Positions 1,539 to 21,775 of a stretch of 56,135 nucleotides of DNA are shown one piece after another. The notes beneath the pieces are model-generated. The model worked only from the letters and a program-made list of their open reading frames with translations. It made no database searches and was not told the DNA's origin. Numbering within the stretch: the stretch's first letter is position 1; every line of letters begins with the position of its first letter. The stretch is taken from contig JAJCYI010000116.1 in NCBI GenBank assembly GCA_029263015.1, forward strand, positions 1 to 56,135, given 5' to 3'. A program made the translations under genes and the position numbers. The DNA is from Saprospiraceae bacterium (GTDB lineage Bacteria; Bacteroidota; Bacteroidia; Chitinophagales; Saprospiraceae).

Positions 1539-3080
1539 ATGTTCAGGATTTTTTATACGCTCCTATTCTTCCTATTTTTTGTTTGCCAAACTTCCGCGCA
1601 GCCAGGCTTCAACAAACTAATTGATACCGGATTCCCCTTAAACCACTTGCGGGATATGATAGTGGTGAACGACACGATCATAGGCTACGGCATGGCTCAG
1701 GCAGATACCATTGATTACCAACAAGGTGTCATCTTGGTGAAGATTGATTCTTCAGGGAACCTGATAAAATCCAACGTGATTGTGGACACGACTGGAGACC
1801 TTTTGTCAATTGACAAATACTGGGGCAAGATAACCGCATCGTCGGAAGGTGGATATGCCTTTACAACTGCCCCATTTGTCAAGAACAGTGCATGGTTGGT
1901 AAAAGTGGACGATGACCTGGAACTGGAGTTCATCCATGAATACCCAGATACAGTTAATGCCAGTAACTTCATGTACAGCATATTGGAAATAGAAGATGGG
2001 TATATCCTTTATGGAGGAATACAAGACCCTGATTTGACCTTAAGATCATTTATTAAGAAAGTGGATAAAAATGGGGAAATTATTTGGACCAAGTTTTATG
2101 GTAATCCTAATTTCTGGGGAGTGATCACAGATGTTGAGTTGGTAAATGATGCTATATTTATTGTTAGCAGTAATGAATGGCTTTCGGCTGATATTATTTT
2201 CGGATCTACACAGACCGTGCTTTATTATATTGATATGGAGGGAGAAGTGGTTGAATCTTGGGTGTCAGGGCCCAATCCAAACGTAGGCTTAATTTACAAA
2301 ATTCTGCCAATGCCCAATGGCGGCTTTATTGGTTTTGGTGAATCTACAGTAGGACATTCACCCATAAGTGGACATCCGATTGTTCAATCTACATTTTCCA
2401 GAATGGATCCCGAATTTAATCTCGAATGGGTCAGCAAATTTGGAAGGATCGGCAAATACACAGCTGACTATACTTTTTACGATATGGAATTTATGCTGGA
2501 TGGCAACATAATAGCCGCGGGTGAAAGCATAACAGAGATGGACGGTAATAAGTACGCATCGGGCTGGCTGATGAAACTATCGCCGGAAGGGGACAGCATC
2601 TGGTCACGCTACGACCTCCCGCCGTTCTCTCCGCACGACCCGTTCAACGACCAATTCTTTGGTGGTGTGGGAGTGCTGTCCAGTGGCAGCATCATAGCAG
2701 GGGGGCAGGCCAATGACCACGGCAAAAGGTACATCTGGCTGGTCAAGGTCACCAGCGACGGGTGCCTGGACACGCTGTACTGTGGGCTGGTGGTGCCCAC
2801 TTCCACAGTAGAGGCACAAGGAAAAACAGGGGGAATGGTTGTCTATCCAAACCCTGCAAGTAGCAGCGTTACCATCGAACTGGTAAAAGGGATTCGGTCG
2901 GGCGGGGAAGTGCTGTTTTTTAATGCACAAGGAAAAGAAGTATTGCGTAAAGTACTGCCTGCACAGCACAAGACCTACACTTTCTCTATTAGTAGCCTGC
3001 CTGTAGGGCTCTATTACATCGAGGCGCGGGACAATGGACAGGGTACTGTGCAGCAGGGCAAGTTGATCGTCATACATTGA
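1539..3080 (+). CDS. secreted T9SS cargo protein, beta-propeller-like
   Basis: A 513-residue exported protein. Residues 1-20 form a signal peptide ending SAQPG. The body holds repeated units of the type GGYxxxG...D...WLVKVD...G, spaced about 50-60 residues, as seen in propeller-like Bacteroidota surface proteins. The last 80 residues form a type A T9SS sorting domain beginning VVYPNPASSSVTIEL and ending GKLIVIH. It should cross the outer membrane and be anchored or released by the type IX system. No enzyme motif is visible. The base composition changes sharply inside the gene: from about 2505 to 2815 it is clearly GC-richer than the AT-rich part before it, as if recombined with another paralogue. 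It is convergent with the small gene at 3111-3278. Confidence 0.88.
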   Translation: MFRIFYTLLFFLFFVCQTSAQPGFNKLIDTGFPLNHLRDMIVVNDTIIGYGMAQADTIDYQQGVILVKIDSSGNLIKSNVIVDTTGDLLSIDKYWGKITASSEGGYAFTTAPFVKNSAWLVKVDDDLELEFIHEYPDTVNASNFMYSILEIEDGYILYGGIQDPDLTLRSFIKKVDKNGEIIWTKFYGNPNFWGVITDVELVNDAIFIVSSNEWLSADIIFGSTQTVLYYIDMEGEVVESWVSGPNPNVGLIYKILPMPNGGFIGFGESTVGHSPISGHPIVQSTFSRMDPEFNLEWVSKFGRIGKYTADYTFYDMEFMLDGNIIAAGESITEMDGNKYASGWLMKLSPEGDSIWSRYDLPPFSPHDPFNDQFFGGVGVLSSGSIIAGGQANDHGKRYIWLVKVTSDGCLDTLYCGLVVPTSTVEAQGKTGGMVVYPNPASSSVTIELVKGIRSGGEVLFFNAQGKEVLRKVLPAQHKTYTFSISSLPVGLYYIEARDNGQGTVQQGKLIVIH

Positions 3081-3110: not shown

Positions 3111-3278
3111 TCAATAAAAAAACGTGTTCACCCAGTCCAAAACCAACTGCCGCCTAAAAAAAAACAGCAGTCCCGAAACGATTAGAACAAAAATGAACAT
3201 CCTCTTTAAAAACAGATTGCTGTTTTTAAGCTTCTCCTGCCGGCTGGTGTATTTTCTTTTTCTGGATTGGTAAATCAT
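3111..3278 (-). CDS. 55-aa basic single-pass membrane protein, copy A
   Basis: A short gene of 55 codons plus stop. It starts ATG at 3278 and stops TGA at 3111-3113. The product has a strongly basic N-terminus (MIYQSRKRKYTSRQ...), one hydrophobic stretch of about 15 residues (MFIFVLIVSGLLFFF, residues 27-41), then RRQ and an aromatic tail ending NTFFY. A Lys/Arg-rich inside and a short outer tail are predicted. The copy at 7733-7900 differs at 11 of 168 bases: ten codons differ, nine silently, and the only replacement is Glu15 to Gln. About 55 bases of leader are also shared, but in copy B an insertion breaks the reading frame there, which supports this ATG. Its 3' end faces the T9SS gene stop at 3080. 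I do not recognise the family. Confidence 0.8.
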   Translation of the reverse strand: MIYQSRKRKYTSRQEKLKNSNLFLKRMFIFVLIVSGLLFFFRRQLVLDWVNTFFY

Positions 3279-3544
3279 GTTGGAGATTGGTTTTTGGTTT
3301 GGGACGACGACTTTGAGTATCGTGTTTGTTTTAAAAAAGGACTCTAAATATCTGGTTATCAGTGATTAATATTCAAAAATTATATTGTTTTAGTCAAAGG
3401 GCTATTCAATTGCCCTTCATTATTTTGATTTCAGTAATTCGTAAAATCTATGACAAATAATGCAGAATACAGTTACATCAATGTATTTTCCACTATTTTT
3501 ACTTTCGACAATTTTTCACTAATAAACCATTAACCCTTTAAATC

Positions 3545-5992
3545 ATGACCAATTTTCATTTAAAGCATTTACTATCTACCTCCCCCCACTTATCTTTTCC
3601 CCCACTAAAAATAGCTGGACAAAATAACATTGCCCACTATTTTAAGACCGGACTTTTTCTCTTACTGCATTGTTTATATCAGACTACCACGGATGCTCAA
3701 TCATTGATAACCTTTTTTGGTGGCGAAACCCAATTGACAACTGCTCAAGCTCTGGACATGGACACATTTTTTTACAATTATGACGTCTTTGATTTTGACC
3801 ATTACCAATTGAACCACCATGTAAAAAATGGTGGGGATACCGTTGCTTTTTCGATCTACATCAATGATACATTGAACTGGGACTTTACGGTTTCAAAGAA
3901 GGAGGTGTTTTCCGATAATTTCCTTTTGATGTACACCACACCGACCGGAGAAAAGGTTGTTTCTCAAAAAGGGGAGACAAACACTTACCAAGGGCAGGTT
4001 GGCAATTCTTCCCAAAACCCCGCTTTTTTCTATATCTCCAACAGCCATCTTAAGGCAGACTTTACCGTAAACGGTGTCGTTTATATCATTGAGCAGGGTG
4101 GCCCATATACGGAGACGGAGGGGTACGTCCTCTACCGCAAAGAAGACCGCAAACTGCCACCTGGCCCAAACGGGGAAACAGAAGTGACGCTAAGGTCGGT
4201 ACCATGTGCGCCCAGTTACCCAACTTGCGAGTGCTATGATGAGGGATGGGAAGACCGGCAATACTATCTGGAACTAGCCTTCGAGATGGACTGTGAGTTT
4301 GTTAGGGATAAGATTTGGAATAAAGATATTAATGAAGAAAATCTTCTAAGGCAGGCTGTCGAGGAGTATTTAGGTGAAAGGATATTAATGGAGATAAGCA
4401 AGGCGTATGAGGATGCCATCGACATGCAGGTTATCGGGGTTTTTGCCCATTTCTGGATGCCATCGTTGAATGCCAATCCCGCTATTGTGCCAGATTGTAC
4501 GGGAATAGACCCTTATCCGGATGAAGGCGAAAACGGTGAACTCGCCTTTTTTTGGAAAGAGTTCCGTGAGTACTGGCATGCGAATTTTGGCTATGTCAAC
4601 AGGGATTGGGCGCATGTTTTTTCGGGGCGGAATTTAGGGCCAATGGCTGATGGGATTTCTTCGGGGAACCCATACACGGGGTTCTCTGGATCTGGGTCAA
4701 TCTGTGGCCGTGACGATCCAATTTTTCAATCCCCTAGCGATCCACACTGGATGAATTCCTATTCGGTTTCTGATGTGGGCGCAGACTGGACAACGGTAGC
4801 TCATGAAATTGGACATGGCTTCGGTTTAGGTCACGGACATGGGTGTAACGATGGTTGCGAACAGGAATATGACCACGATCATTGTGACTGTGGGTTGATG
4901 GAAGCAGGTTGCGGCTGTAGCGAAAGATTTGAATGTTTTACCCATTACACCTGTGGCAGTGTCCCTGCCCAGAACGTCTTCCCTTATCACGAAACATCAC
5001 ATTATAGGTTATGTCAATATTTGAATGGGTGGAATGCTAGTTTGCAAAGGGACAACTACCTCTGCCTGTTGGCCTCTCCCCCCATCAATTATGAATTTGA
5101 TATCCTAATAGAGGATGACCAGGCCATTTCAATTGAGGATGACCTTATTTGTATAGATGAAGAAGTAAACGTGAGTTTTTACTACACATTTGCACTCAAC
5201 AATTTTTCATGGGATCTTGGGCCTGGCTTAGCATTGGTTTCTGGCACCCTCAATGACCCTTCAATCAGGGTAAAAGGTACAGCAAACTGGAACTCTAAAA
5301 TATGCGCCAATTTTGATTATAATGGCCAGTCGTTGACTTACTGTCAGGACATCTATATTGGTTTGCCACCTTCCCCTGGAGCGCCCATTTTTTCGCCTAT
5401 TTACAACAATGGCGAACTCTGTCTCAGTATTGGGTTTCCACCTGATGCCCACACTTCTTATTTTGATTATTCTTTTACCTTGTTTGAAAACAGTTCCGGG
5501 ACAAACCTGCTCGATAGTGGGAGTGGTACCACAACAAACCCCGACCCATTGGTCTTTCCTGTATGCGATGACAACTGTGTCAACATTACTATCAAAGCTG
5601 GCAACAAATGTGGATTGAACCTTTATACGCCATTTGATCCGTTTTCAGACTGTTTTGAAGACTTGGCCTTGAAAGTACCGCCCTCAAAGGATGTTGAAAG
5701 CTGGAAAGTTTCATTTGATCAGAAAAACAAATTCATTGGAAACGGCGAAAATGGTTTTGCCATATATCCCAATCCTTCCAATGGTAAAGTCAATATTGTT
5801 TTACCTGTCCATGATGGGGTATCCAAACTCCGTATTGTAGATATGACAGGAAAGACTGCTTATAGCGGGGAAATAGCTAAATCAGTCAGGCGGGTTGAAC
5901 TTGATGGCAGCAATTGGGGCAGTGGCATATACAAGGCCCAATTGATACAAGGAAATAGGATATACCAGAAAAAACTGGAGATCATTCAATAA
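3545..5992 (+). CDS. secreted metzincin-type zinc metalloprotease with T9SS domain
   Basis: An 815-residue exported protein. The zinc site HEIGHGFGLGH (about residues 420-430) has the metzincin form HExxHxxGxxH. A Met-turn candidate (GLMEAG) follows about 20 residues later, and the stretch between is rich in Cys, His and Asp. Downstream are beta-sandwich-like regions (about 520-720) and a type A T9SS sorting domain starting FAIYPNPSNGKVNIVL. The hydrophobic export segment (FKTGLFLLLHCLY) lies at residues 34-46, behind an unusually long polar leader. No later ATG would shorten it, so the start is not fully settled. It probably digests extracellular or surface protein. A possible -7 element, TACTTTCG, lies at 3500-3507. 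Confidence 0.9.
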   Translation: MTNFHLKHLLSTSPHLSFPPLKIAGQNNIAHYFKTGLFLLLHCLYQTTTDAQSLITFFGGETQLTTAQALDMDTFFYNYDVFDFDHYQLNHHVKNGGDTVAFSIYINDTLNWDFTVSKKEVFSDNFLLMYTTPTGEKVVSQKGETNTYQGQVGNSSQNPAFFYISNSHLKADFTVNGVVYIIEQGGPYTETEGYVLYRKEDRKLPPGPNGETEVTLRSVPCAPSYPTCECYDEGWEDRQYYLELAFEMDCEFVRDKIWNKDINEENLLRQAVEEYLGERILMEISKAYEDAIDMQVIGVFAHFWMPSLNANPAIVPDCTGIDPYPDEGENGELAFFWKEFREYWHANFGYVNRDWAHVFSGRNLGPMADGISSGNPYTGFSGSGSICGRDDPIFQSPSDPHWMNSYSVSDVGADWTTVAHEIGHGFGLGHGHGCNDGCEQEYDHDHCDCGLMEAGCGCSERFECFTHYTCGSVPAQNVFPYHETSHYRLCQYLNGWNASLQRDNYLCLLASPPINYEFDILIEDDQAISIEDDLICIDEEVNVSFYYTFALNNFSWDLGPGLALVSGTLNDPSIRVKGTANWNSKICANFDYNGQSLTYCQDIYIGLPPSPGAPIFSPIYNNGELCLSIGFPPDAHTSYFDYSFTLFENSSGTNLLDSGSGTTTNPDPLVFPVCDDNCVNITIKAGNKCGLNLYTPFDPFSDCFEDLALKVPPSKDVESWKVSFDQKNKFIGNGENGFAIYPNPSNGKVNIVLPVHDGVSKLRIVDMTGKTAYSGEIAKSVRRVELDGSNWGSGIYKAQLIQGNRIYQKKLEIIQ

Positions 5993-6000
5993 AACAAGGC

Positions 6001-6040
6001 AAACGGGCCGGGCAATTGTATTGCCCGGCCCGTTTGTTTT
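6001..6040 (+). terminator. intrinsic terminator after the metalloprotease gene
   Basis: Perfect 15-base arms (AAACGGGCCGGGCAA and complement) at 6001-6015 and 6021-6035 with a 5-base loop, followed by GTTTT. It begins 8 bases after the protease stop. A TTG at 6016, in frame with the next gene, falls in the loop and is not a credible start. Confidence 0.9.
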
Positions 6041-6048
6041 ATATAGAC

Positions 6049-7638
6049 ATGAAAATTTTTAATAACCTTTTCTTGATTGTTTTCGCTATCTTTCTTTGGG
6101 GAATAGTCCGAGCTGATTGCCAGCCTGTTATCGTCTGGGACAAGGTCTATGGATCATATTTTGATGATTCAGGGATTCAAATAATAGCTACTCAGGAAGG
6201 AGGGTGTGTTTTTACCGCTTGGCCTTTTGAACCGGGAAGTGGAGACGTACCAGAACAAAAAGGCGGTAGAGATGTGTGGGGTTGCAAGTTGGATGTAAAC
6301 GGTGAAATTCTCTATTCGAGGATATTAGGCGGTTCGAATGATGACTTTGCTGCCTCAATAATGGGAACAAATGATGGTGGTGTCATATTCCAATACGGTA
6401 CTCTTTCTTCTGATTTTGACATCCCGCATTTAATTGGGGAAAATGACGAGGCTTTCCATAAACTTGATGTAGATGGTAAAACTGAATGGGTTAGAGTGTT
6501 TGGAAGTACGGGAGGAGACAGTGGCCTTTCCCTTCAAAAAGAAGATGGTAATTTCCTGATGTACCTGTACTATGGCCACAACGACGGTGATCTAGAAGAT
6601 GTGGAAGAAGACGGGGTGGGTGCATTGGTGATCGAGTTCGATCAGGACTGCAACGCCCTGTGGAAAATTCCCATAGATTTCCAACCCGTGGACGAGGTCT
6701 TTCAATCTCGAATTTATGATACTGCTGATGGCGGTTTTGTTTTCGGCGTGAGTTCAAAAGTAAACCCCGGCAACCATGGCGCTTCGGACATCTGCATTTG
6801 GAAATATTCCCCTGACAGGGTCATTGAATGGGAAAGTTGTTTTGGAGGAGAGGACGGGGAGTTTGTCAGGGACATATTGGAACTGCCGGATGGCGGATTT
6901 CTGATAGCGGCCGGGACATGGTCAAAAGGGGGGGACATAACCGATCCGCTCGGTCGCCGTGATATCTGGCTTCTGCACTTAGATCGTAACGGCAACCTTG
7001 TGTCCCAAAGGACAATGGGCGGTTCGGGTTTGGACTCAATTGAGAAAATGATATTGGCCGATGGCGGTCAATCAGCAATACTACTGTGCTACACTAGTTC
7101 TGATGACGTTGACGTGAGTTTCAACCATGGAGGGAGCGATGTTTGGCTGGTAAAGATAGACCTTGCCACCAAAAGTATCATCTGGGAAAAGACGTATGGC
7201 AGCAGCACCGGGGCTGAATTTGCAAGGGACATGGTACAGTTGGAAGATGGCAGCCTGATCGTACTTGGCGAAATAGCAGCGGGTCATGGCCAGGACGGGG
7301 ATGTCACGGGCGAAACCCATTCCAACCACAAGGATATTTGGGTCTTTAAACTTGCGCCCGAAGAAGTACAGGAATCAAACGATTGTGGCGGGTTCACCAT
7401 CATGCCCAACCCAGCCAGCAGTAACCATGTAGAAATAATTTTTGAAAACCTTTTAAAGGACGATCCAGATATCAGGGTTTTTGATATCCGTGGCTCACTC
7501 GTAACTTATTATCCCAGTGCATCGTTGCAGGGGGCTTGGAAAGCAGAACTCGAACTACCGCAAAACCTACCTTTTGGTATTTATTTGGTGCAGGTGGAAG
7601 GGTGTCCCCAAGTTGGGAAGTTGTTGAAGATGAATTAA
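6049..7638 (+). CDS. secreted T9SS cargo protein, beta-propeller-like
   Basis: A 529-residue exported protein when started at ATG 6049. The signal peptide (MKIFNNLFLIVFAIFLWG...) begins there, and the earlier in-frame TTG lies inside the preceding terminator. The body carries about seven blocks with the theme GGSxDD...DGGxxxxG...DIWxxKxDxxGxxxWxxxxG, which suggests a propeller like the protein at 1539. The C-terminus is a T9SS type A sorting domain (TIMPNPASSNHVEI to VGKLLKMN). No catalytic motif is seen, so a binding or surface-layer role is likely. The gene is convergent with copy B of the small membrane protein at 7733-7900, the same arrangement as at 1539/3111. Confidence 0.88.
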   Translation: MKIFNNLFLIVFAIFLWGIVRADCQPVIVWDKVYGSYFDDSGIQIIATQEGGCVFTAWPFEPGSGDVPEQKGGRDVWGCKLDVNGEILYSRILGGSNDDFAASIMGTNDGGVIFQYGTLSSDFDIPHLIGENDEAFHKLDVDGKTEWVRVFGSTGGDSGLSLQKEDGNFLMYLYYGHNDGDLEDVEEDGVGALVIEFDQDCNALWKIPIDFQPVDEVFQSRIYDTADGGFVFGVSSKVNPGNHGASDICIWKYSPDRVIEWESCFGGEDGEFVRDILELPDGGFLIAAGTWSKGGDITDPLGRRDIWLLHLDRNGNLVSQRTMGGSGLDSIEKMILADGGQSAILLCYTSSDDVDVSFNHGGSDVWLVKIDLATKSIIWEKTYGSSTGAEFARDMVQLEDGSLIVLGEIAAGHGQDGDVTGETHSNHKDIWVFKLAPEEVQESNDCGGFTIMPNPASSNHVEIIFENLLKDDPDIRVFDIRGSLVTYYPSASLQGAWKAELELPQNLPFGIYLVQVEGCPQVGKLLKMN

Positions 7639-7732: not shown

Positions 7733-7900
7733 TCAATAAAAAAACGTATTCACCCAGTCCAAAACCAACTGCCGCCTGAAAAAAAACAGCAGTCCCGAAA
7801 CGATCAAAACAAAAATGAACATCCTCTTTAAAAACAAGTTGCTGTTTTTAAGTTTCTGTTGTCGGCTGGTGTATTTTCTCTTTCTGGATTGGTAAATCAT
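7733..7900 (-). CDS. 55-aa basic single-pass membrane protein, copy B
   Basis: A paralogue of the gene at 3111-3278. The ATG is at 7900 and the TGA at 7733-7735, with the same 55 codons. The protein is identical to copy A except Gln for Glu at residue 15, while nine other codons differ silently. Coding between the two copies has therefore been conserved while the DNA drifted. Upstream, an extra segment of roughly 20 bases (CCCCAAACCAAAAACTAAAA-like) has been added between the shared leader and the ATG. It could be the last gene of a minus-strand unit that starts with the patatin-like gene (gap about 190 bases) or have its own promoter. Function unknown. Confidence 0.8.
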   Translation of the reverse strand: MIYQSRKRKYTSRQQKLKNSNLFLKRMFIFVLIVSGLLFFFRRQLVLDWVNTFFY

Positions 7901-7910
7901 GTGGAGGAGG

Positions 7911-8085
7911 TTGGTTTTTGGTTTGGGGTTTTTAGTTTTTGGTTTGGGGCGACGACTTTGGGTATTGTGTTTGTTCTAATTTCCAGGACACAAAAATAAT
8001 TCATTTTGCAAATATTCACTTTTTCGGGCAACTCAACCCCAAACCAAAAACCCCGAACTAAGAACCCTGAACCAAAAAACCTGAA
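7911..8085. repeat. wordy inverted repeat between small gene and patatin gene
   Basis: The left arm 7911-7949 consists of TTGGTTTTTGGTTTGGGG-type words. The right arm 8036-8085 consists of CCCCAAACCAAAAACCCCGA-type words, roughly the reverse complement. The arms are about 90 bases apart. It lies just after the patatin stop codon in the direction of transcription. Confidence 0.6.
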
Positions 8086-8092
8086 CTCTTCC

Positions 8093-10483
8093 TCAAATCT
8101 TGAATCGCATTTCCTGAATGATCTCTTCCTCCTGAATTTCATCTGGGGCAGGGATGTACGCCTCAGCTTCGGCAGGTTGTGATTCAGCATCTTTCTTTGA
8201 CGGGGTGATTTCAGCAGCCATTTTATGCGAAATATCCACGAGGCCAGACATCGTTTCATCTTGTTTAAAGATCCCTTTATTGTTGTCGAATAGGCCAATC
8301 AATTGTGCAATGGACACATCGTACTCGCCCCGTCGATATTCACTTGGCGTTTTGGTTGCATTCAAAACATCCGTTCCGATAAACTGGCCCAATTGGAAAT
8401 AAGACTCCCATTGTACGGGGTCAAAAAACTGATCGGCAGTCGGTTCGTGGGGGAAGTCGGGATGGTAGATTTTATATTTGAACGTGTCAAACTGCGGGTT
8501 TTTGTCGCCGTTCGAATGGTATTCGGGCACGAATAATTTCCGTGGCGATGTCACTGAAGATTTGATATAAACCATAGTGCCCATTTTAATCTTGTCGCTG
8601 CCCACTTTGTCTGTCATGGCATTGAGCTTATCCAGGGTGGTTTGGACGGCTATTGCATGGAGTTCGTCAAATCGTTCTTCTGTGAAATCAATGCCCCTTT
8701 CTGCTTTTAGGTCAACCTTGAATTTCAGGATATTCTTGTCTTTTTTAGAATAAAAATAATTGACCAGAGCTTCCAGTTTTTTCTTTTTCTCCTGAATTTT
8801 CCCCTTCACAACGATTCGCATATTGAATGGGACAGGTTCTTTGTTTTCATCTAAAACAATGAATTCTTCCCAGATTTTCATTAGGTCGGCCACGGCAAAA
8901 CGCTTTTGGGCGTAGCCCGTTGACGCTTTTGGATAAATAATGTCAACAGGATCATTCCCCGTGCGGAAGCTAATGTCAACCCCCAGTTCGTTCCGGGCAC
9001 GTATGGAGAGGTTCTCAAGATCGGCAAAAGTGCTATCGGGATCGGCCCCTGCATCAACAGCCAGAATGAGCCGGCACTTTCGACGGAGGAGTTCATATAC
9101 AGCCAGGTTTTCAATATGCCCACCGTCGGAAATGTTGAGTTTACGGTTGTCCGTACCGATTTTGGAAAATAACTCTTTAAAGAAAAAAGAAGGCCACCAA
9201 ACGATGTAGGTCGCCCAATTGGGCAGCAACTTCCGCTTTTTTGCTCCAGGGTTATTGACCCAGAAACCCAAACGGGCATTGAACAGCGTCATCATGACAC
9301 TCAACATTTTATTTGAATAAATCCCCATTCCCGGATTAACGGCTGCCGCCGAGATGGTCAGTGCCGCAGGCAATGTCATATCCTTAAAACCTGGAAAATC
9401 AGGGGTTTTCACATATCCTGAAAGCTTGGATCCACAAAAAGCTGGTGACAAGAGAAAATAATCGCTTGCTTTGGCGCCTTTGAACTTGTCCTCGCCCCCA
9501 GGGTTTTGCAGGTTGAGGCAAGTATTGATAAGGGGGTAAGGGGCAAGGTAATTCCGTTGTTCTTTTTCATCGAGGTTAAAGATATTTTTCAACAAAAAAT
9601 TGCGGTATTTACCAGTATGATTCAAAAACGCATCTGCCAGTTGTTTTCTATAAAAGCGGTGAAAACTCAGCGAGTTAGGATTTAAAAATAGCCCAAAAAT
9701 GTACAATCCCGTAGCCCCTAAAAGTGCCTTCCTGATTTGTATCCAGGTCCATTCCGCACTAGTGTCCAAGGTGATGATACCAACAAACATGAGGAATACC
9801 ATGATGAGAAGCGCAAGGGTGGATTCTATTTTGGTAAATATTTTTGAAACACCCAAGCTGAAATTAAACATGAGATTGAGCACAAAATGGATAAACGCCA
9901 CAGCACCCAATGCCCAAAGCGCTGGTTTTAAGTAAAACATGACCTTGTTTTGTTCAAAATTCCAGTCTAGGAAAGAATCCTCAACTTCGAGATAGGGTAT
10001 TGACGCCACTGAACGGAACAATAAATAAATGATCAATATAGTCGCAATTGGGCTTAATAAACTCATCACCCAACTCACCAGGTAGCCAAGCATCAAAAGA
10101 GTGGTATTCCACGATTTTTCCCATTTCCCTTGTCCGGGGATCATGTAATCGCCATAGCTGCGCAGGCGGCTTATTTTATCTTCCTGAAACAACTCATCGT
10201 ACCCATCTAATTGTTTCACCGTTGCTTGCACATACGCGCCTGTGTAGCCCCCTCCAGAAACAGTTGAAATATAATCGGCCTTTTCCAGAATTTTGAAAAG
10301 GTTGAGCGTTTTGAGAAAACCTAAATTGATCGTGGCCGAGCGAATGCCTCCACCTGAAAGGGCAATACCAAATTTGTTATTGTCTATTTCCCCAGCGGCC
10401 TCTTTCCCAAACAACTTTGCTCGGCGTTCTTTCACCAGTTTTTTTTCTTCTTCTAAGACTTTGTTGAGTTTGAGTGTATCCAT
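8093..10483 (-). CDS. patatin-like phospholipase with membrane segments
   Basis: A 796-residue protein. The N-terminal patatin core shows the oxyanion loop SGGGIRS (residues 43-49) and the nucleophile context STVSGGGYTG with Ser76. The catalytic Asp is in ISDGGHIENL (Asp453), followed by LAVDAGAD. Four hydrophobic segments (about residues 135-265) interrupt the core, so the enzyme is probably anchored in the inner membrane. The last roughly 50 residues are charged and low in complexity (Ala/Glu/Pro-rich). Patatin enzymes hydrolyse acyl chains from phospholipids; the substrate here is unknown. It is longer than typical patatins (about 300 residues) but matches the large membrane-bound bacterial type. 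Alanine dehydrogenase lies upstream on the same strand. Confidence 0.9.
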   Translation of the reverse strand: MDTLKLNKVLEEEKKLVKERRAKLFGKEAAGEIDNNKFGIALSGGGIRSATINLGFLKTLNLFKILEKADYISTVSGGGYTGAYVQATVKQLDGYDELFQEDKISRLRSYGDYMIPGQGKWEKSWNTTLLMLGYLVSWVMSLLSPIATILIIYLLFRSVASIPYLEVEDSFLDWNFEQNKVMFYLKPALWALGAVAFIHFVLNLMFNFSLGVSKIFTKIESTLALLIMVFLMFVGIITLDTSAEWTWIQIRKALLGATGLYIFGLFLNPNSLSFHRFYRKQLADAFLNHTGKYRNFLLKNIFNLDEKEQRNYLAPYPLINTCLNLQNPGGEDKFKGAKASDYFLLSPAFCGSKLSGYVKTPDFPGFKDMTLPAALTISAAAVNPGMGIYSNKMLSVMMTLFNARLGFWVNNPGAKKRKLLPNWATYIVWWPSFFFKELFSKIGTDNRKLNISDGGHIENLAVYELLRRKCRLILAVDAGADPDSTFADLENLSIRARNELGVDISFRTGNDPVDIIYPKASTGYAQKRFAVADLMKIWEEFIVLDENKEPVPFNMRIVVKGKIQEKKKKLEALVNYFYSKKDKNILKFKVDLKAERGIDFTEERFDELHAIAVQTTLDKLNAMTDKVGSDKIKMGTMVYIKSSVTSPRKLFVPEYHSNGDKNPQFDTFKYKIYHPDFPHEPTADQFFDPVQWESYFQLGQFIGTDVLNATKTPSEYRRGEYDVSIAQLIGLFDNNKGIFKQDETMSGLVDISHKMAAEITPSKKDAESQPAEAEAYIPAPDEIQEEEIIQEMRFKI

Positions 10484-10497
10484 AAGTTTTTGATTGA

Positions 10498-10564
10498 GGA
10501 TTCAGGGGTCAGGTGAGTATTATTTAGGTGACAAATCTTTCGTATTTCCAGCGACCCTGAATCC
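10498..10564. repeat. wordy inverted repeat between patatin and ald
   Basis: GGATTCAGGGGTC at 10498-10510 pairs with GACCCTGAATCC at 10553-10564 with one bulged base. It fills the gap between the ald stop (10567) and the patatin start (10483), so it could attenuate or terminate ald transcription. Confidence 0.6.
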
Positions 10565-10566
10565 TG

Positions 10567-11802
10567 TCAAGAAGTCCGCGAGGTCATCAGGAGGTCGAGG
10601 TCGGTGTATTTTAAGTCATATCTTCTGCTGAGGTAGTTGTTAGTGAGGCGACCTTTGTATGCATAGACGCCATTGCGCAGGCCATGATGTTCGTAAAGAT
10701 AGTCTTCGAGTCCGCCAATTTTTCCCGCGGCGACCAACAGTGGCATGAGGATGTTACTGATAGCAATAGATGAAGTGCGGGGTACTTTGGAGGCTATGTT
10801 CGGCACACAATAATGAATGACTCCATGTTTGGTGAAAGTAGGGCGGTTGTGGCTGGTCATTTCAGAAGTTTCAAAACACCCACCCTGATCTATACTGATG
10901 TCTATGATGACTGAACCTGCTTTCATTTGCATGACCATGGCTTCCGTTACGACGACAGGAGCACGGCTGGTTTTCGAATGCAGTGCGCCAATGGCCACAT
11001 CGGCATTCAGCAGTTCTTTGGCCACTTGATAAGGGTTCATCGTGGAGGTGTTCAACTGCCTTCCAACATGGTGCTTTAGCCGCATCAGTTTATGCACATT
11101 ATTGTCAAATATCCGCACATCGGCTCCGAGGCCAAGCGCTACCCGAGTTGCTGATTCTCCGACGACTCCTGCACCCAGGATCACAATCTTGGCCGAAGGC
11201 ACACCAGATACCCCAGCGAGCAATACCCCTTTTCCGCCATTGGTGGCAGCGAGGAGTTCGCCGGCGGTGAGCACAGCACTTACTCCTGCAATCTCACTCA
11301 AAACCCTGACAAAAGGAAATGTACCCCCATCGTCCTGAATGTATTCCATGCTGAGAGCAATTATTCTTTTTTCCAATATTTTTTTTAATACATCTTTGGA
11401 AAAGGCAGGTAAGGTAAGTGGGGAGATGACGATTTGATTGGGCGGCATCAGGTCAAGTTCATCAAGTGTAATTGGGGTGGCCTTTAAAAGGACATTGGCT
11501 TTATAAACTTCTTCTTTTGTATAACTTATTTCGCCCCCCACCTCAGAGTATCGATGGTCGATGTAATTGGATTTTTCCCCTGCACCTGCTTCCAATATGA
11601 TGCGGTGACCATACCCAGCGAGGATTGCCACAGCCGAGGGCACCATGACCACCCTATTTTCTTGCATCATATCCGTTTTGGGAATGCCGATGAACATGCT
11701 ACCCTGCTTTTTCTCAATGGCAAGCATTTCGGCTTGGGGGACATATCGGCTCTCAACAAGCGATTTTGGGATGGGTATTTTTCTTTTTGTGGATTCAGGC
11801 AT
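10567..11802 (-). CDS. ald: alanine dehydrogenase
   Basis: A 411-residue enzyme converting L-alanine to pyruvate and ammonia with NAD. The start of the family shows at GIPKTDMMQENRVVMVPSAV. The NAD-binding Rossmann loop is ILGAGVVGESATRVALGLGA, and the conserved C-terminal region reads VPNIASKVPRTSSIAISN. I start at ATG 11802 (MPESTKRK). An in-frame start 24 codons earlier would translate a wordy repeat (NPKQRTPNQKPPN) and is probably spurious. It may be cotranscribed downstream of tsaE. Bacteroidota often pair these two genes. Function is well supported by end-to-end similarity in length and motifs. Confidence 0.95.
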   Translation of the reverse strand: MPESTKRKIPIPKSLVESRYVPQAEMLAIEKKQGSMFIGIPKTDMMQENRVVMVPSAVAILAGYGHRIILEAGAGEKSNYIDHRYSEVGGEISYTKEEVYKANVLLKATPITLDELDLMPPNQIVISPLTLPAFSKDVLKKILEKRIIALSMEYIQDDGGTFPFVRVLSEIAGVSAVLTAGELLAATNGGKGVLLAGVSGVPSAKIVILGAGVVGESATRVALGLGADVRIFDNNVHKLMRLKHHVGRQLNTSTMNPYQVAKELLNADVAIGALHSKTSRAPVVVTEAMVMQMKAGSVIIDISIDQGGCFETSEMTSHNRPTFTKHGVIHYCVPNIASKVPRTSSIAISNILMPLLVAAGKIGGLEDYLYEHHGLRNGVYAYKGRLTNNYLSRRYDLKYTDLDLLMTSRTS

Positions 11803-11823
11803 AATTGAATGGTTGGGTGGTTT

Positions 11824-11902
11824 TTGGTTCGGAGTTCTTTGTTTGGGGTTCGTACTCGTCATAAGGGAAACCAAGAACTAAAAACTAAGAACCCCGAACC
11901 AA
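11824..11902. repeat. wordy inverted repeat between tsaE and ald
   Basis: The left arm 11824-11852 (TTGGTTCGGAGTTCTTTG...) and the right arm 11869-11902 (AACCAAGAACTAAAAACTAA...) are imperfect reverse complements separated by about 16 bases. The element lies between the tsaE stop and the ald start and is read as false N-terminal residues if ald is started too early. Confidence 0.65.
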
Positions 11903-11910
11903 TTCACATT

Positions 11911-12351
11911 CTACAAAATTAAAATTTTCCGTGAGGAATCATTGAGAATGGAGATATTTATCTTGACCACATCTTCTGGGAGCAGAGGTTTAATAATATC
12001 TGGCCACTCAATGAAACAATACTGGTCATTATAAAGAACATCTTCAATGCCGATATTGAGTGCTTCTTCGATGGATTTTAAGCGGTAAAGGTCAAGATGT
12101 CGAAATATTTGTTCAGCACCAGATTTGTCAAAGTAAGTGTATTCATTGACAATTGAAAAGGTAGGACTCGTCACATTTTCCTGAACGCCAATTAAGTGAC
12201 AAATAGCTTGGATGAGGGTAGTTTTACCAGCACCAAGGTCTCCAGTGAGAGCGAAAGTTTTGCGAGCAGCAGCATAAATAAGTATTTGTTCTGCCGCTTT
12301 ACCAATATCTTCTACTGATTTAAGTGCTATTTCAATTCCAGTGTTTTCCAA
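11911..12351 (-). CDS. tsaE: tRNA threonylcarbamoyladenosine biosynthesis ATPase TsaE
   Basis: A 146-residue P-loop protein. The Walker A motif GDLGAGKTTL lies near residue 38, then TSPTFSIVNEY and HLDLYRL, and the CFIEWPD motif near residue 112. All are hallmarks of TsaE (YjeE). It drives the t6A modification of tRNAs reading ANN codons together with TsaB, TsaC and TsaD, none of which lies in this window. The length is normal for the family. The N-terminal MENTGIEIALKS is compatible with ATG at 12351. Confidence 0.95.
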   Translation of the reverse strand: MENTGIEIALKSVEDIGKAAEQILIYAAARKTFALTGDLGAGKTTLIQAICHLIGVQENVTSPTFSIVNEYTYFDKSGAEQIFRHLDLYRLKSIEEALNIGIEDVLYNDQYCFIEWPDIIKPLLPEDVVKINISILNDSSRKILIL

Positions 12352-12370
12352 TTTATTAGAACTATGTAGG

Positions 12371-12412
12371 TGTCAGGATAGTGGAGTCAGGATAGTGGAG
12401 TCAGGGGTCAGA
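12371..12412. repeat. tandem 14-base words between the channel gene and tsaE
   Basis: GTCAGGATAGTGGA is repeated twice in tandem and followed by a partial third copy (GTCAGGGGTCAG). It lies 20 bases upstream of the tsaE start, in the same position as the other wordy repeats in this window. Confidence 0.6.
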
Positions 12413-12435
12413 TAGAATAATGAAAAGAGCACCCC

Positions 12436-13230
12436 TTATTTTTTATCAAATTCTTCTTTCACTGCCAACACAATTACGCCTGCCACCAAAACAAGCACTA
12501 TCCAGAACATCAGGCTGGTTTGACCTTGGAATGCAGCTTTGTATCCCAGTGCACCAAAAAGCCCTCCGACGACCGGACCCACTATTGGGATTGGTGCATA
12601 TGCCCAATCAGAATCCCCTTTGCCTTTGATAGGCAGCAATGCATGTGCAATCCTTGGCCCCAAATCCCTGGCTGGATTGATCGCATAACCAGTTGTCCCA
12701 CCCAATGACATACCAATGGAAACAATCAAAATACCAACAACTATAGGGTTCAACCCTTCGGTAAACTTGTTCACCCCAATGAACATCAGCCCAGCCACCA
12801 AAATAAATGTACCGATGAGTTCGCTCAATAAGTTAGCCCAGCGAGAACGGACGGCAGGCCCAGTAGAGAATATGGCCAGTTTGTCGGCGGGGTTATCAGT
12901 TTGCCCCCAGTGTGGAAGGTAATGCAACCAGACAATGGCTGCCCCCACTATTGCACCAAGAAGTTGTGCAGTCAAATAGGTTGGCACATCGGCCCATGAA
13001 AAACTCCCTTCCGCCGCAAGCCCAAGTGTAACAGCAGGGTTGATATGCGCCCCACTGATATTCCCTACTGCATATATAGCCATCGTAACGGCGATACCCC
13101 ATGCGAAGGTAATGACTACCCAGCCAGAATTTTGTGCTTTTGATTTGTTAAGGAGAACACCTGCCACAACACCGTCGCCAAGGATAATGAGCAGCATAGT
13201 CCCAATGAATTCGCCCCAAAATGATGACAT
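12436..13230 (-). CDS. MIP-family channel, aquaglyceroporin type
   Basis: A 264-residue inner-membrane channel with six membrane spans. Both pore motifs are present: HINPAVTLG in the first half and YAINPARDLGPR in the second. The Asp after the second NPA box (NPARD) is the usual mark of glycerol-conducting members (GlpF type) rather than strict water channels. Start chosen at ATG 13230 (MSSFWGEFIGTMLL), where the family normally begins. The in-frame extension to 13323 is polar and unlike the family. No glycerol kinase gene lies nearby, so the physiological substrate is inferred only from the pore motif. Confidence 0.92.
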   Translation of the reverse strand: MSSFWGEFIGTMLLIILGDGVVAGVLLNKSKAQNSGWVVITFAWGIAVTMAIYAVGNISGAHINPAVTLGLAAEGSFSWADVPTYLTAQLLGAIVGAAIVWLHYLPHWGQTDNPADKLAIFSTGPAVRSRWANLLSELIGTFILVAGLMFIGVNKFTEGLNPIVVGILIVSIGMSLGGTTGYAINPARDLGPRIAHALLPIKGKGDSDWAYAPIPIVGPVVGGLFGALGYKAAFQGQTSLMFWIVLVLVAGVIVLAVKEEFDKK

Positions 13231-13386
13231 CCGCTGTATTGTTTTGATTATGGATCGTTCAAATATTTCGCTATTTTTTGAACATTTCGGCCCTAAAGTA
13301 CATGTAGTATTTGAACTGTGCAACTTGCCAAATGAAATTCGATTATGCCTAATCCCTTCTGAACACCTTCCCCTACTGAACTCCTA

Positions 13387-13547
13387 AGGAACGAGTAAAA
13401 AATAACATATAACATCTTGTTGTTTCTTTTGCCCTTATTTTTTCTTTTAAAATCAGTCATAGTATCAACAATACTTCTTCTTTTAAAGAAAATCTAAAGA
13501 CAAAATAATTCACCAATCTTGTTATAACTTATTCTTTACTCGTTCCT
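13387..13547. mobile_element. MITE-like element, AGGAACGAG inverted-repeat family
   Basis: A 161-base non-coding element whose ends are about 28-base inverted repeats with a few mismatches (AGGAACGAGTAAAAAATAAC on the left; complement of GTTATAACTTATTCTTTACT plus CGTTCCT on the right). The interior is AT-rich with its own weak self-complementarity. No target duplication is clear. The right end lies 12 bases before the start of the 88-aa gene at 13560. The element at 20830-21013 has related ends. Confidence 0.65.
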
Positions 13548-13559
13548 AAAAATTCGACT

Positions 13560-13826
13560 ATGTTAAATCTGTTCAAATTTCCGTTCAGGGGTCGCAATTC
13601 AAAAACGGCTAATAGTTTCCCATCTGATGACATTTCAAACGGAATCATCAGAAACTACTTGTCAAGGAAGAATGACTTATGCGGAGACAAAATAGAAGAA
13701 GCCAGTAGCACCATTGCCAACGAAATGAAATTACTTCAGGAACGATTGATGCAACCTGGCGATGTTGATAGATATGATGTGATTATGGCAGCTTTTGAAA
13801 AGATAGACCGAAGGCTGCAAGAATGA
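13560..13826 (+). CDS. small hypothetical protein, 88 aa
   Basis: I do not recognise a family. The product is charged and soluble, with no signal peptide or membrane segment. A probable helical second half (KIEEASSTIANEMKLLQERL and following) could form a short coiled coil. Support for a real gene is the strong intrinsic terminator 30 bases after its stop codon, and that no gene lies on the other strand. It starts only 12 bases after a MITE-like element, so its transcript must begin inside that element or closely after it. Confidence 0.65.
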   Translation: MLNLFKFPFRGRNSKTANSFPSDDISNGIIRNYLSRKNDLCGDKIEEASSTIANEMKLLQERLMQPGDVDRYDVIMAAFEKIDRRLQE

Positions 13827-13855
13827 CCTGCACTGTATTTGAGACCGATAAAACA

Positions 13856-13897
13856 AACCGGCTACCCAAACATTTCAGGTAGCCGGTTATTATTTTC
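13856..13897 (+). terminator. intrinsic terminator after the 88-aa gene
   Basis: AACCGGCTACC at 13856-13866 and its exact complement at 13878-13888, an 11-base loop, then ATTATTTT. The orientation suits the plus-strand gene. Confidence 0.85.
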
Positions 13898-13959
13898 CAA
13901 ATAATAGAATATCGTTACTAACGATGGAGTTTTCATTCGGAATCCAATTTTCAAACACA

Positions 13960-14652
13960 CTATTTCCTTCTTCTTTTTTGGTATCCTCCACCTGATGATC
14001 CACCGCCTCTCCTGCCATTGTTGTTTCTACCGGAAGAACGGTAGCCATCCCTGCTATCTCTACCTCCACGATGATTATCGCGGGTATTTCTCCTCATATT
14101 GGAACGGGTCAGGTTATCAAGCGAGGCATCTTCTATTGGCACCAATTGGCCATCTGAGAGTGTATGAAGGTCTTCTATAATGGTGTCGTCGCTGACATAA
14201 TGTTCGCGATTCCAAGTCTTGTAAGCCAATTTCATATATGAACCGATAACCTGCACAAAGCCATCTTTTTTAGGCCCATCTTCCATCGCAATAGCCTTCT
14301 CAATAAGCGTGAGCACATTGTGGCCATAATGACGGAATTTTTTTGCTTTTGCAGGGTAGGGCACCCTTTCTGGTCTTTTTCTTTTATCTTCTTCAGTTGG
14401 TATTTCACCACTTGGGGGCATCACATCAAGATCATATTCTGCAATACGGAAAACATGTTTCCACATTTTGCCCCTATAATCATCAAGGTTACGGTTTTGA
14501 GGGTGCATTTGCATCATCAATCTTACTACTTCTTCAATAAAGTGTTGACGTTCCTCATTATTCTCGATTGCCCTTGCATAGCGTACCATATTTTGCACAT
14601 GGCGTCCATATTCAGGTATAATCAATTCTTCTCTGCTTGAATTATATTCCAT
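13960..14652 (-). CDS. DUF4290 protein with Arg/Gly-rich tail
   Basis: A 230-residue cytoplasmic protein. Residues 1-165 match the Bacteroidota family DUF4290 (EYGRHVQNMVRYA near the start, then FRHYGHNVLTLIEKA). The function of that domain is not established. The last roughly 55 residues are disordered and rich in Arg, Gly, Asn and Ser, with RGG-like repeats (NHRGGRDSRDGY, NNGRRGGGSSGGGYQKRRRK), a composition common in RNA-binding tails. I start at ATG 14652 (MEYNSSREEL). The earlier frame runs through AATGATGAATGATG-type repeat sequence. It follows glmS on the same strand. Confidence 0.88.
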   Translation of the reverse strand: MEYNSSREELIIPEYGRHVQNMVRYARAIENNEERQHFIEEVVRLMMQMHPQNRNLDDYRGKMWKHVFRIAEYDLDVMPPSGEIPTEEDKRKRPERVPYPAKAKKFRHYGHNVLTLIEKAIAMEDGPKKDGFVQVIGSYMKLAYKTWNREHYVSDDTIIEDLHTLSDGQLVPIEDASLDNLTRSNMRRNTRDNHRGGRDSRDGYRSSGRNNNGRRGGGSSGGGYQKRRRK

Positions 14653-14727
14653 TACTTTAATTATGAATGAAAAATGATGAATGATGAATGGATGTTCCAT
14701 TTTTCAATCACCAGTTTATATTATTTT

Positions 14728-14806
14728 GAGTTAGTGAGTTTGTAAGTGTTGAGTTTGTGAGTTTGGTACTCAATTACTCAGCAACTCAACACTCAATAAC
14801 TAACTC
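14728..14806. repeat. wordy inverted repeat between glmS and the DUF4290 gene
   Basis: The left arm 14728-14765 (GAGTTAGTGAGTTTGTAAGT...) and the right arm 14769-14806 (ACTCAATTACTCAGCAACTC...) are imperfect reverse complements meeting almost back to back. The element touches the glmS stop codon and could act as a terminator or RNA-stability hairpin. Confidence 0.65.
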
Positions 14807-16645
14807 CTATTCAACGGTTACTGATTTGGCAAGGTTGCGTGGTTGATCCACATTGCACCCTCGCATAACAGCTATATGATATGACAACAATTGCAAGGGG
14901 ACAACTGACAACAGTGGAGAAAAAGGCTCCTCTGTTTCAGGAATCGGGATAGTATAATCAGCAATTTTGTTTATTTCTTCATCCCCTTCCGACACAATTG
15001 CAATAACGATTCCTTTACGAGCTTTCACTTCCATGATATTGGAAACAATCTTTTCATTCAAGCTCTTGTTTGTAGCTATTACAACAACTGGCATGTTTTC
15101 GTCAATCAGGGCGATAGGGCCGTGTTTCATTTCAGCGGCAGGATAACCCTCGGCATGGATGTATGATATTTCTTTCAATTTCAAGGCTCCTTCCAAAGCG
15201 ACTGGGAAATTATATCCCCTTCCTAGATAAAGTGCATTTGGCGAATCTTTGATTTCAGAGGCAATGTATTTTATCAGGTCATTGGACTTTAGCACCTTTT
15301 CCACCTTTTGCGGTATTCTATCAAATTCTTGTAACAGTCGTTGATAATATTCGGTCGTAATCTGCCCCCTTTCTTTAGCAATTTTTATAGCCATCAAAGT
15401 CAACAAGGTAACTTGACCAGTAAATGCTTTAGTTGAAGCTACTCCGATTTCAGGGCCTGCATGGATATATGAACCCGCATCGGTCATACGTGAAATGGAT
15501 GATCCAACTGAATTGACAATGCCATAAATGAAAGCACCCTGTTTTTTGGCCAATTCAAGTGCAGCGTATGTGTCTGCCGTTTCGCCAGATTGTGATATTG
15601 CGATCACGACATCTTTGGGTCGGATGACTGGATTCCTATACCTGAATTCAGATGCATATTCCACTTCAACAGGAATCCTGGCAAGATCTTCAAAAAGGTA
15701 CTCACCAATCAGCCCAGCATGCCAAGAAGTACCACAACCAACAATAATGAATCTTTCAGCTAAACGAACATTGTCGCCAAAATCATCGACACCACCCAAC
15801 CTGATCCAACCTTCCTTGGCATTTAACCTCCCACGCATGGCATCACATATGGTTCGTGGCTGCTCATGGATTTCTTTTAACATGAAATAATCATATCCAC
15901 CTTTTTCCATGCGCGCTATTTCCATGGTCAGTTCGTCAATAAACGGGGTATGAATTTCATTGTCAATGGTCCTTATTTCATAATCCCCATTCCTGTTCAC
16001 CACAGCCGTATGTTCGTCGTCGAGGTAGATTACTTTTTTGGTATGTTCAACGATAGGTGTTCCATCTGAAGCGAAAAAAAATCCATCATCGCTTAGTCCT
16101 ATCACCAGCGGGCTCCCTTTTCTCGCAGCCACCAATTTGTCGGGGTCATTTTTATCCATAACCACGATTGCATAAGCCCCCACTACCCTTGTAAGTGCTT
16201 CACGGACAGCCTCTTCAATGGGTAGATCGTCTTGGTTTTGCACTTCTTCTATCAAATGAACCAACACTTCCGTATCAGTCTGAGTATGAAAAACATGGCC
16301 CTCGTTTTTTAAAGCTTCTTTAATCAAGGCGTAGTTTTCAATGATCCCATTGTGGACAATGGTCAGCCTTCCATTCCCAGAAACATGTGGGTGGGCGTTA
16401 TTATCATCTGGTTTCCCATGCGTGGCCCACCTGGTATGGCCAATGCCAGAAGTTGCACCGAGGTTTTTGTTTTCGGCAAAATCCAATAGGTCTTTGACTT
16501 TGCCTTTTTTCTTGTAAATGTTAAGATCGCCGTTGAGCAATGCAACGCCAGCACTATCGTATCCTCTATATTCCAGCCGTTGCAAGCCTTTGATCAAAAT
16601 TGGGTAAGCTTGTTTTGTTCCGATGTAAGCAATTATTCCGCACAT
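14807..16645 (-). CDS. glmS: glucosamine-6-phosphate synthase (isomerizing)
   Basis: A 612-residue cytoplasmic enzyme making glucosamine-6-phosphate from fructose-6-phosphate and glutamine, the entry to cell-wall amino sugars. The N-terminal glutaminase begins MCGIIAYIG, with Cys2 the nucleophile once Met is removed, and shows RLEYRGYDSAG and GHTRWATHG. Two SIS domains follow (GCGTSWHAG; SQSGETADT; LGRGYNFPVALEGALKLKEI). The C-terminus NLAKSVTVE is the intact family ending. The leader shows no glmS ribozyme-like sequence that I can recognise. Confidence 0.97.
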   Translation of the reverse strand: MCGIIAYIGTKQAYPILIKGLQRLEYRGYDSAGVALLNGDLNIYKKKGKVKDLLDFAENKNLGATSGIGHTRWATHGKPDDNNAHPHVSGNGRLTIVHNGIIENYALIKEALKNEGHVFHTQTDTEVLVHLIEEVQNQDDLPIEEAVREALTRVVGAYAIVVMDKNDPDKLVAARKGSPLVIGLSDDGFFFASDGTPIVEHTKKVIYLDDEHTAVVNRNGDYEIRTIDNEIHTPFIDELTMEIARMEKGGYDYFMLKEIHEQPRTICDAMRGRLNAKEGWIRLGGVDDFGDNVRLAERFIIVGCGTSWHAGLIGEYLFEDLARIPVEVEYASEFRYRNPVIRPKDVVIAISQSGETADTYAALELAKKQGAFIYGIVNSVGSSISRMTDAGSYIHAGPEIGVASTKAFTGQVTLLTLMAIKIAKERGQITTEYYQRLLQEFDRIPQKVEKVLKSNDLIKYIASEIKDSPNALYLGRGYNFPVALEGALKLKEISYIHAEGYPAAEMKHGPIALIDENMPVVVIATNKSLNEKIVSNIMEVKARKGIVIAIVSEGDEEINKIADYTIPIPETEEPFSPLLSVVPLQLLSYHIAVMRGCNVDQPRNLAKSVTVE

Positions 16646-16727
16646 GATAAATTGGGTGTTTTGTGTATCAAAAGATCAACATATATCTCAAATGAACTTC
16701 TATTATACAACCTATGTAACAACCTAA

Positions 16728-18074: not shown

Positions 18075-18243
18075 TCTAATAATTCCTATAAAAAATTTGC
18101 GGAAAAGAATTTGAAGGCTTAATTCAAAGTTGAAATCCAGTTCAAGAACGATATAATTATATGGATTCCAAGTATGTTTTGAGCGTTCAAACAATATCAA
18201 GGAAAGAGAGTATTCACCAAAGCAGAAAGTTGTATGAAATTGA

Positions 18244-18290
18244 AAAAGCAGTTGGCAAATACCAGGGTTGTCTGATTGCCAACTGCTTTT
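18244..18290 (-). terminator. intrinsic terminator after the glycogen-synthase-like gene
   Basis: Perfect 15-base arms (AAAAGCAGTTGGCAA and complement) at 18244-18258 and 18276-18290. Read on the minus strand the hairpin ends in TTTTTC, so it closes transcription of the gene at 18316-19146 before the DUF4270 gene begins. Confidence 0.88.
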
Positions 18291-18315
18291 CGTTCACATT
18301 TTTCAAATCTCGCAA

Positions 18316-19146: not shown

Positions 19147-19202
19147 ATCAATTCTCTATATTAATTTCAGAAAGGTTATCTTGACTTTTTCAAAATAGTC
19201 CG

Positions 19203-19210
19203 CAAAGATA
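19203..19210 (-). promoter_or_regulatory. Bacteroidota-type -7 element (TATCTTTG)
   Basis: On the minus strand TATCTTTG fits TAnnTTTG, 57 bases upstream of the start at 19146. A TTG lies about 22 bases further upstream as a weak -33 element. On the plus strand TAATTTTG at 19251-19258 could serve panC. Confidence 0.5.
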
Positions 19211-19440
19211 CTAAAAAAATTAGGTGAATTATCAATGCTTTTCCCATAAATAATTTTGCAAAACTCAAAACAAGCGGGGCTTCTGGTGTCTCTTGGGCAC
19301 CGAATTATATATAAAATGATCGATTTGTTTTGGCTGCATTCCAATGCTGCTAAATCCGCAAAATGACCTATTTTCGCCAGCGAAAGACCTGCCATATGTG
19401 AGCATGTCCAAATAATGAAACATTTCAATTAGCCTTTATT

Positions 19441-20289: not shown

Positions 20290-20410
20290 ATGATTAAAAA
20301 CGAGAAGAGCAATTCTGATTTAAATTACTGATAATCATAAATTTAAAAATTTAAAAAAAATCTTATTCAAAAGATTAATAGACTATTAACTCTTAAAATA
20401 TTTTTTTTAT

Positions 20411-20418
20411 TACATTTG
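20411..20418 (+). promoter_or_regulatory. Bacteroidota-type -7 element (TACATTTG)
   Basis: TACATTTG matches TAnnTTTG, about 100 bases before the ATG at 20517, in a very AT-rich stretch. No clean TTTG element is seen at the expected -33 position. Confidence 0.5.
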
Positions 20419-20516
20419 CCGCCACAAAGGAAAATTACACAAACACAAAGTTAGGATAAACACCTTTACTGTCTTGTTACCATTCAATATCTCTAACTTA
20501 CTTTAACTGTTTACTG

Positions 20517-20822: not shown

Positions 20823-20829
20823 AATATCC

Positions 20830-21013: not shown

Positions 21014-21037
21014 ACCACCACCCTATTTACTGCTCTC

Positions 21038-21550: not shown

Positions 21551-21556
21551 TTGTAG

Positions 21557-21732: not shown

Positions 21733-21775
21733 GGTTCAGAAAAGCATATTACGTGAAGTAAGGAGAAAAAATCCT

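Follow-up and report, generated by a model that had tools for sequence, protein, structure and literature searches.

The window, by which we mean the whole 56,135-nucleotide stretch of DNA analyzed here, contains two short minus-strand open reading frames (ORFs) that differ at a single residue. The locus raises the question of whether this duplicated frame is a real gene and, if so, what its product does. The original prediction held that the two ORFs encode the same 55 residues except for Glu15 or Gln15, that they specify a small membrane protein under protein-level selection, and that the protein may be tied to envelope or secretion functions.

Two copies of a 55-codon frame differ almost only at silent sites

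We located the two copies and their 5′ flanks as follows.

3111..3278, minus strand: copy A, predicted gene for a 55-residue bitopic membrane protein with Glu15; probably the displaced daughter, judged by position against genomes G207 and G205
7733..7900, minus strand: copy B, 55-residue gene with Gln15, behind a patatin-like gene in a position shared with two congeners
3279..3334, minus strand: 5′ flank of copy A, repeated at copy B and possibly a leader or promoter (repeat at 3287 to 3334, 90% identical in the alignment)
7901..7979, minus strand: 5′ flank of copy B, carrying an additional 23 bases of A/C-rich repeat (repeat search and alignment)

Both ORFs were present at these positions, with the same 55 residues apart from position 15, and both lie within a 173-nt direct repeat of 94% identity. 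The 11 base changes between the copies fall at codon positions 1, 2, and 3 in the ratio 3/0/8, and codon alignment reproduced the earlier count of nine silent codons among the 10 that differ. In the other five frames, 0 to 6 of the 9 to 10 changed codons are silent, and all five contain stops in both copies. By the Nei-Gojobori method, there were 10 synonymous changes on 32.7 sites (dS, 0.393) and one nonsynonymous change on 132.3 sites (dN, 0.0076), for a dN/dS of about 0.02. Without protein constraint, one or fewer nonsynonymous changes among 11 would have a probability of 8 × 10−7 (80% nonsynonymous sites).

The length differences between the copies are confined to noncoding DNA, as had been claimed: 23 extra bases in the 5′ flank of copy B break the 5′ part of the repeat. 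On the 5′ side, the repeated unit takes in about 55 flanking bases, among them a 48-base block of 90% identity; on the other side, it stops 3 bases past the stop codon. The Bacteroidota-type promoter motif is TAnnTTTG, and a match to it was found upstream of copy B only.

Two other interpretations of the repeat were considered and rejected. For a structured RNA instead of a protein, Rfam at gathering scores returned only a tRNA at position 46067 of the window, and the codon changes follow the pattern of a coding frame. An antisense ORF as the real gene was not supported by the comparison of the A/B changes across frames.

The frame is conserved and encodes a predicted bitopic membrane protein

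We compared 100 loci from 100 genomes, which were hand-picked by match strength and contig extent rather than drawn at random; 99 are from the taxonomic family of the window, and one is from genome G832. In each of the 100 loci, we recovered the small gene as an open frame. We set the start at the first Met leaving 52 to 57 codons where one was available, a rule that partly imposes the length range at the 5′ end, and all 102 sequences (100 loci plus the two window copies) were 52 to 57 residues long. The frame extends upstream of the set start by a median of only 7 codons, with a further in-frame ATG upstream in seven of the 100 loci. The start codons were ATG in 99 sequences and TTG in three, one of which (L225) was trimmed by hand.

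The members share a basic N-terminal tail of the Y-x-S-R-x-R-Y-x-S-R-R-E-K type, one hydrophobic helix, and an aromatic C terminus. Among 101 members (copy B apart), the conserved tail residues were E15 (99 members, with Asp in the other two), R6 (95), R14 (94), Y10 (91), Y3 (89), and R8 (87), and conserved residues past the tail included R43 (84), T52 (82), F30 (81), F54 (78), and Y55 (74). The most hydrophobic 19-residue stretch begins at residue 23 (median), and hydropathy over 19 residues exceeded 1.6 in 95 of 102 sequences but not in the remaining seven. The net charge before the helix was greater than that after it in 102/102 sequences, with means of +6.9 and +0.6. The protein thus has a predicted bitopic layout, with one hydrophobic helix and a positive-inside charge distribution. 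AlphaFold models of 23 sequences (the window and named loci) placed helices at residues 13 to 41 and 43 to 54, with a mean pLDDT of 80 and a pTM of 0.46.

Selection on the protein was also evident beyond the window. For 33 pairs of homologues at 72% identity or more, a pool in which members are shared between pairs and dS is saturated in seven, pN was 0.080 and pS was 0.61, which bears out the expectation that dN/dS in homologues would be well below 1. The highest ratio for a single pair was 0.20 (G061/G202), and one pair had an identical protein with 17 silent changes. The low dN/dS, the conserved frame and stop, the hydrophobic helix, and the charge bias give strong support, at the level of sequence, to the prediction of a real small membrane protein under protein-level selection. 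A by-eye comparison of the two copies in the raw sequence had sufficed to detect a real small gene.

The family is common in one lineage and has no shared match in family libraries

A single-sequence search matched 107 of 199 genomes of the window's family at an E value of ≤0.1, with many of the weakest matches being partial or containing stops. A single-sequence scan of genome contigs gave no match. A DNA search of 40 relatives yielded two additions, G207 and, through a 34-base match, G202, and both were confirmed by a profile. This profile of 41 sequences, built from copy A plus a single member per locus for 40 loci and omitting copy B, matched at least 233 of 398 genomes of the family at an E value of ≤0.001, a lower bound at 16 or fewer candidates scored per genome. 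Two profile matches occurred in just five of the 233 genomes (G000, G074, G101, G103, and G665), so a second copy is rare. In G079, the listed profile match contains a stop, although a shorter single-sequence match there has none. When all candidates were scored, 12 of 25 family genomes matched at 7.3 × 10−9 or better, but within the window's genus the count was only 5 of 14. The nine genus genomes that gave no profile match include four that are less than 90% complete, and the gene therefore looks dispensable there.

In a sample of the order (149 genomes, up to 44 candidates each), a single strong match fell outside the family, that in G832 (1.1 × 10−16; family f75), and the remaining outside matches were at 0.0027 or weaker. 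A sample of the phylum (395 genomes, up to 16 scored each) gave five matches at 7.3 × 10−9 or better, all in the window's family, and seven further genomes at 0.0027 to 0.009; the family, order, and phylum sets overlap. Close relatives came from 21 loci in named records, namely Phaeodactylibacter luteus, Flavilitoribacter nigricans, a Lewinella metagenome-assembled genome (MAG), and MAGs titled Phaeodactylibacter, Saprospiraceae, Saprospirales, or Bacteroidetes. From these named relatives, we take the family to be Saprospiraceae.

When the 41 members were searched against Pfam (E ≤ 1), NCBIfam (E ≤ 1), and PHROGs (E ≤ 0.1), the listed matches (25 of 33 families for Pfam and 25 of 26 for NCBIfam) were scattered and weak, with no more than six of the 41 members matching any one family and a best E value of 0.0006 among the listed matches. 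The profile had no match at an E value of ≤1 among PDB sequences. Literature searches found nothing on small transmembrane proteins of Saprospiraceae, nothing joining Phaeodactylibacter and rsgA, and nothing on ribosome profiling of Bacteroidetes small membrane proteins; sources that mention rsgA, Bacteroidetes, and a downstream membrane protein together appear to be off-topic. By its predicted features, this is a genuine new family within a known kind, that of small bitopic membrane proteins. In the samples searched it is, apart from the one strong match in G832, restricted by lineage to Saprospiraceae, where it is common without a shared match in Pfam, NCBIfam, PHROGs, or PDB sequences.

A mobile element or phage gene was also considered and rejected. 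The window sequence had no match in phages at an E value of ≤1 and no confirmed relative in viral contigs, and a Phaeodactylibacter-type query had no match in plasmids at an E value of ≤1.

T9SS cargo genes next to the two copies

The suggested tie to secretion came from the ORFs that converge on the two copies; these are listed here with a further ORF that lies between the copies.

1539..3080, plus strand: T9SS cargo ORF, tail-to-tail with copy A (PF18962, TIGR04183)
3545..5992, plus strand: T9SS cargo ORF lying between the copies and containing a reprolysin-like metalloprotease domain (PF18962, PF13688)
6016..7638, plus strand: ORF tail-to-tail with copy B, its T9SS tail just under the cutoffs (PF18962, 25.1 bits against 27; TIGR04183, 22.9 bits against 23)

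Each copy does have a tail-to-tail partner ORF that carries a T9SS sorting domain; the Por_Secre_tail of the copy B partner falls below its cutoff, and the convergent ends are 30 bases apart at copy A and 94 at copy B. This arrangement favors an envelope or T9SS-associated small protein. However, across the genes of the 100 loci, a crude T9SS-tail motif occurred in just 3 of 195 immediate neighbors versus 15 of 510 other genes, so that such tails are no commoner beside the small gene than elsewhere in the same loci and the proposed tie is unsupported. Moreover, two congeners that share the gene order of copy B (G207 and G205) are both outside the three motif-bearing loci. The 55-residue protein itself matched no Pfam family at E ≤ 0.01 and no NCBIfam family at E ≤ 0.1, the sorting domain (PF18962/TIGR04183) and T9SS models included. 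We consider an envelope or T9SS-associated role exceedingly unlikely.

rsgA is a recurrent upstream neighbor

We called genes mechanically, as ORFs of at least 80 residues, in the flanks of the small gene, which reached up to 6 kb per side at 40 loci and up to 3 kb per side at 60. An upstream gene was in reach at 96 of the 100 loci, with the other four at contig edges, and the upstream neighbor, whatever its kind, was on the same strand in 81 of the 96. In 35 of the 96 loci, from 24 genera by genus codes, the gene directly upstream and on the same strand was rsgA. The intervening gaps ranged from −4 to 240 bases and measured 17 bases or less, overlaps included, in 17 of the 35. Seven more loci had rsgA in the stretch in a nonadjacent position, for 42 of 100 in all. 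One representative passed the RsgA model TIGR00157 with 233.8 bits (cutoff, 100). GGGP synthase genes often lie upstream of rsgA. Several loci have a GTP cyclohydrolase II gene (ribA) directly upstream of the small gene. One representative each of GGGP synthase and RibA passed its NCBIfam cutoff (TIGR01769 and TIGR00505, respectively).

The rsgA-linked members belong to both sequence types, with and without residue 9 (11 and 24 members), and the link is therefore probably ancestral. In eight loci (L066, L204, L224, L205, L084, L071, L199, and L221), the small gene starts within or right after the rsgA stop (gaps, −4 to 0), an arrangement suggestive of translational coupling to rsgA in those loci.

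RsgA is a GTPase of 30S assembly. The frequency and closeness of this linkage, which would fit co-transcription, together with the strongly basic and conserved tail, raise the possibility that 30S particles or rRNA are brought to the membrane by binding to the Arg/Tyr-rich cytosolic tail. However, 61 of the 96 loci have another gene directly upstream (seven of those with rsgA further off), so the link may be mere inherited gene order, and a basic tail is also expected from the positive-inside rule. In the window's own genome, rsgA is on another contig, and no such small gene lies behind it in the stretch examined. Among the matches listed in Pfam, NCBIfam, and PHROGs, no family was common to many members. 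We judge a ribosome or rRNA tether unlikely and treat the possible ribosome link only as a lead, drawn from synteny and charge.

The neighborhoods also bear on whether the protein is a small subunit of a larger membrane complex, such as a transporter or a respiratory or lipid enzyme, that is bound mainly through the transmembrane helix, as AcrZ is on AcrB. The size, the single helix, and the conservation of T52, F54, and Y55 in the aromatic C-terminal part fit such a subunit, but the tail is better conserved than the helix. A gene that we read as flippase-like often converges from downstream, and it recurs only in that orientation; no consistent membrane-enzyme neighbor was seen. A subunit of this type appears rather unlikely.

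A proposed accessory role and its relation to known small membrane proteins

We give slightly better than an even chance to the reading that this is a small bitopic inner-membrane protein, N terminus inside, that acts as an accessory or adaptor whose basic cytosolic tail docks on a putative partner. In this model, residues 1 to 16 would form the conserved basic cytosolic tail, residues ∼20 to 41 would cross the inner membrane in the orientation predicted from charge and hydropathy, and the last ∼12 residues would lie on the periplasmic side as a short aromatic helix. The tail residues Y3, R6, R8, Y10, R14, and E15 would dock on one defined cytosolic or membrane partner, and the protein, itself nonenzymatic, would hold or tune that partner at the membrane. 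The most frequent identified upstream neighbor of its gene is rsgA, which often itself follows a GGGP synthase gene; the window and two congeners have a patatin-like gene there instead.

AcrZ consists of a single helix without a catalytic domain and sits on AcrB. AcrZ (PMC7267776) and similar proteins are bitopic small membrane regulators of Escherichia coli, and the Saprospiraceae protein resembles such regulators in being a small single-helix membrane protein without a catalytic domain. Unlike AcrZ-type proteins, it has no family match, its best conserved part is the basic N-terminal tail, and in the samples searched it is found in one family, apart from the one strong match in another. A looser likeness is to YqjD and ElaB, which are ribosome-linked, C-tail-anchored E. 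coli proteins. The likeness lies in an N-terminal cytosolic part followed by a single helix near the C terminus and in a possible ribosome link, which here would come from the rsgA synteny. However, the Saprospiraceae protein is about half as long as YqjD and ElaB. DUF883, their Pfam family, was not among the 25 of 33 Pfam families listed for the 41 members at E ≤ 1, for which the best listed E value was 0.002. The two E. coli proteins are the subjects of reports on ElaB (PMC6389858) and YqjD (PMC10746276). Catalogues of microbial small proteins such as GMSC (PMC11364881) may list members as uncharacterized small ORFs, whereas the libraries that we searched gave no name, function, or family model for the Saprospiraceae protein.

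History of the duplication and the E15Q change

Upstream of copy B, the window contains the following genes.

8093..10483, minus strand: patatin-like phospholipase, directly upstream of copy B (PF01734, 29 bits against a cutoff of 27.7)
10567..11874, minus strand: alanine dehydrogenase-like gene (PF01262, PF05222)
11911..12351, minus strand: tsaE (PF02367, TIGR00150)

In the congeners G207 and G205, the order is alanine dehydrogenase, patatin, small gene, as at copy B; in two other congeners (G061 and G202), the neighbors of the small gene differ. Because its gene order matches that in G207 and G205, copy B is probably in the older position and copy A is the likely displaced daughter. Copies A and B are 98% identical versus 69% for copy A and G207, which places the duplication after the split from G207 unless gene conversion acted. 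In the window genome the gene was copied, together with its putative leader, to a site about 4.6 kb away, probably from B to A. Selection has since been maintained on both copies, and the single protein change, E15Q, lies in copy B.

Residue 15 is Glu in 99 and Asp in 2 of the 101 members other than copy B, and G207 has Glu at this position. E15Q may be a first step toward a changed paralogue, a polymorphism, or an error. One further reading, compatible with the others, takes copy B for a paralogue, inactive or altered, that either modulates copy A or has begun to decay. The sole protein change does fall at the family's least variable acidic site, but the remaining 54 residues were kept despite a dS of 0.39, and one substitution seen in a single assembly may reflect a polymorphism or a sequencing error; we regard this reading of copy B as improbable. 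Very unlikely, in our estimation, is a combined reading in which an rsgA-coupled Saprospiraceae adaptor tethers assembling small ribosomal subunits to the inner membrane by its Arg/Tyr-rich tail, with the E15Q paralogue as modulator. The near-invariant motif, the rsgA link, and the natural E15Q variant are direct experimental handles.

Comparison with these relatives over window positions 7733 to 21779 indicates an inversion or other rearrangement in one of the lineages, with one end just behind copy B. Genes after the small gene in G207 and G205 correspond to the region at 21.8 to 26.6 kb of the window, and in G207 the orientation of that region is opposite relative to the patatin block. A 157-residue ORF at 22452 to 22922 is 95.5% identical to its counterpart in G205 (L217:3919), where the other matched genes of the locus are 50 to 76% identical. 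Degenerate A/C-rich repeats with a unit near AACCCCGAACCAAA occur on both strands between the genes around copy B (7911 to 7949, 8027 to 8089, and 11815 to 11916). Tandem octamers were also present, with five copies of TGAGTTTG at 14727 to 14765 and 3.5 copies of TGAGTTAT at 21562 to 21589, near the synteny break.
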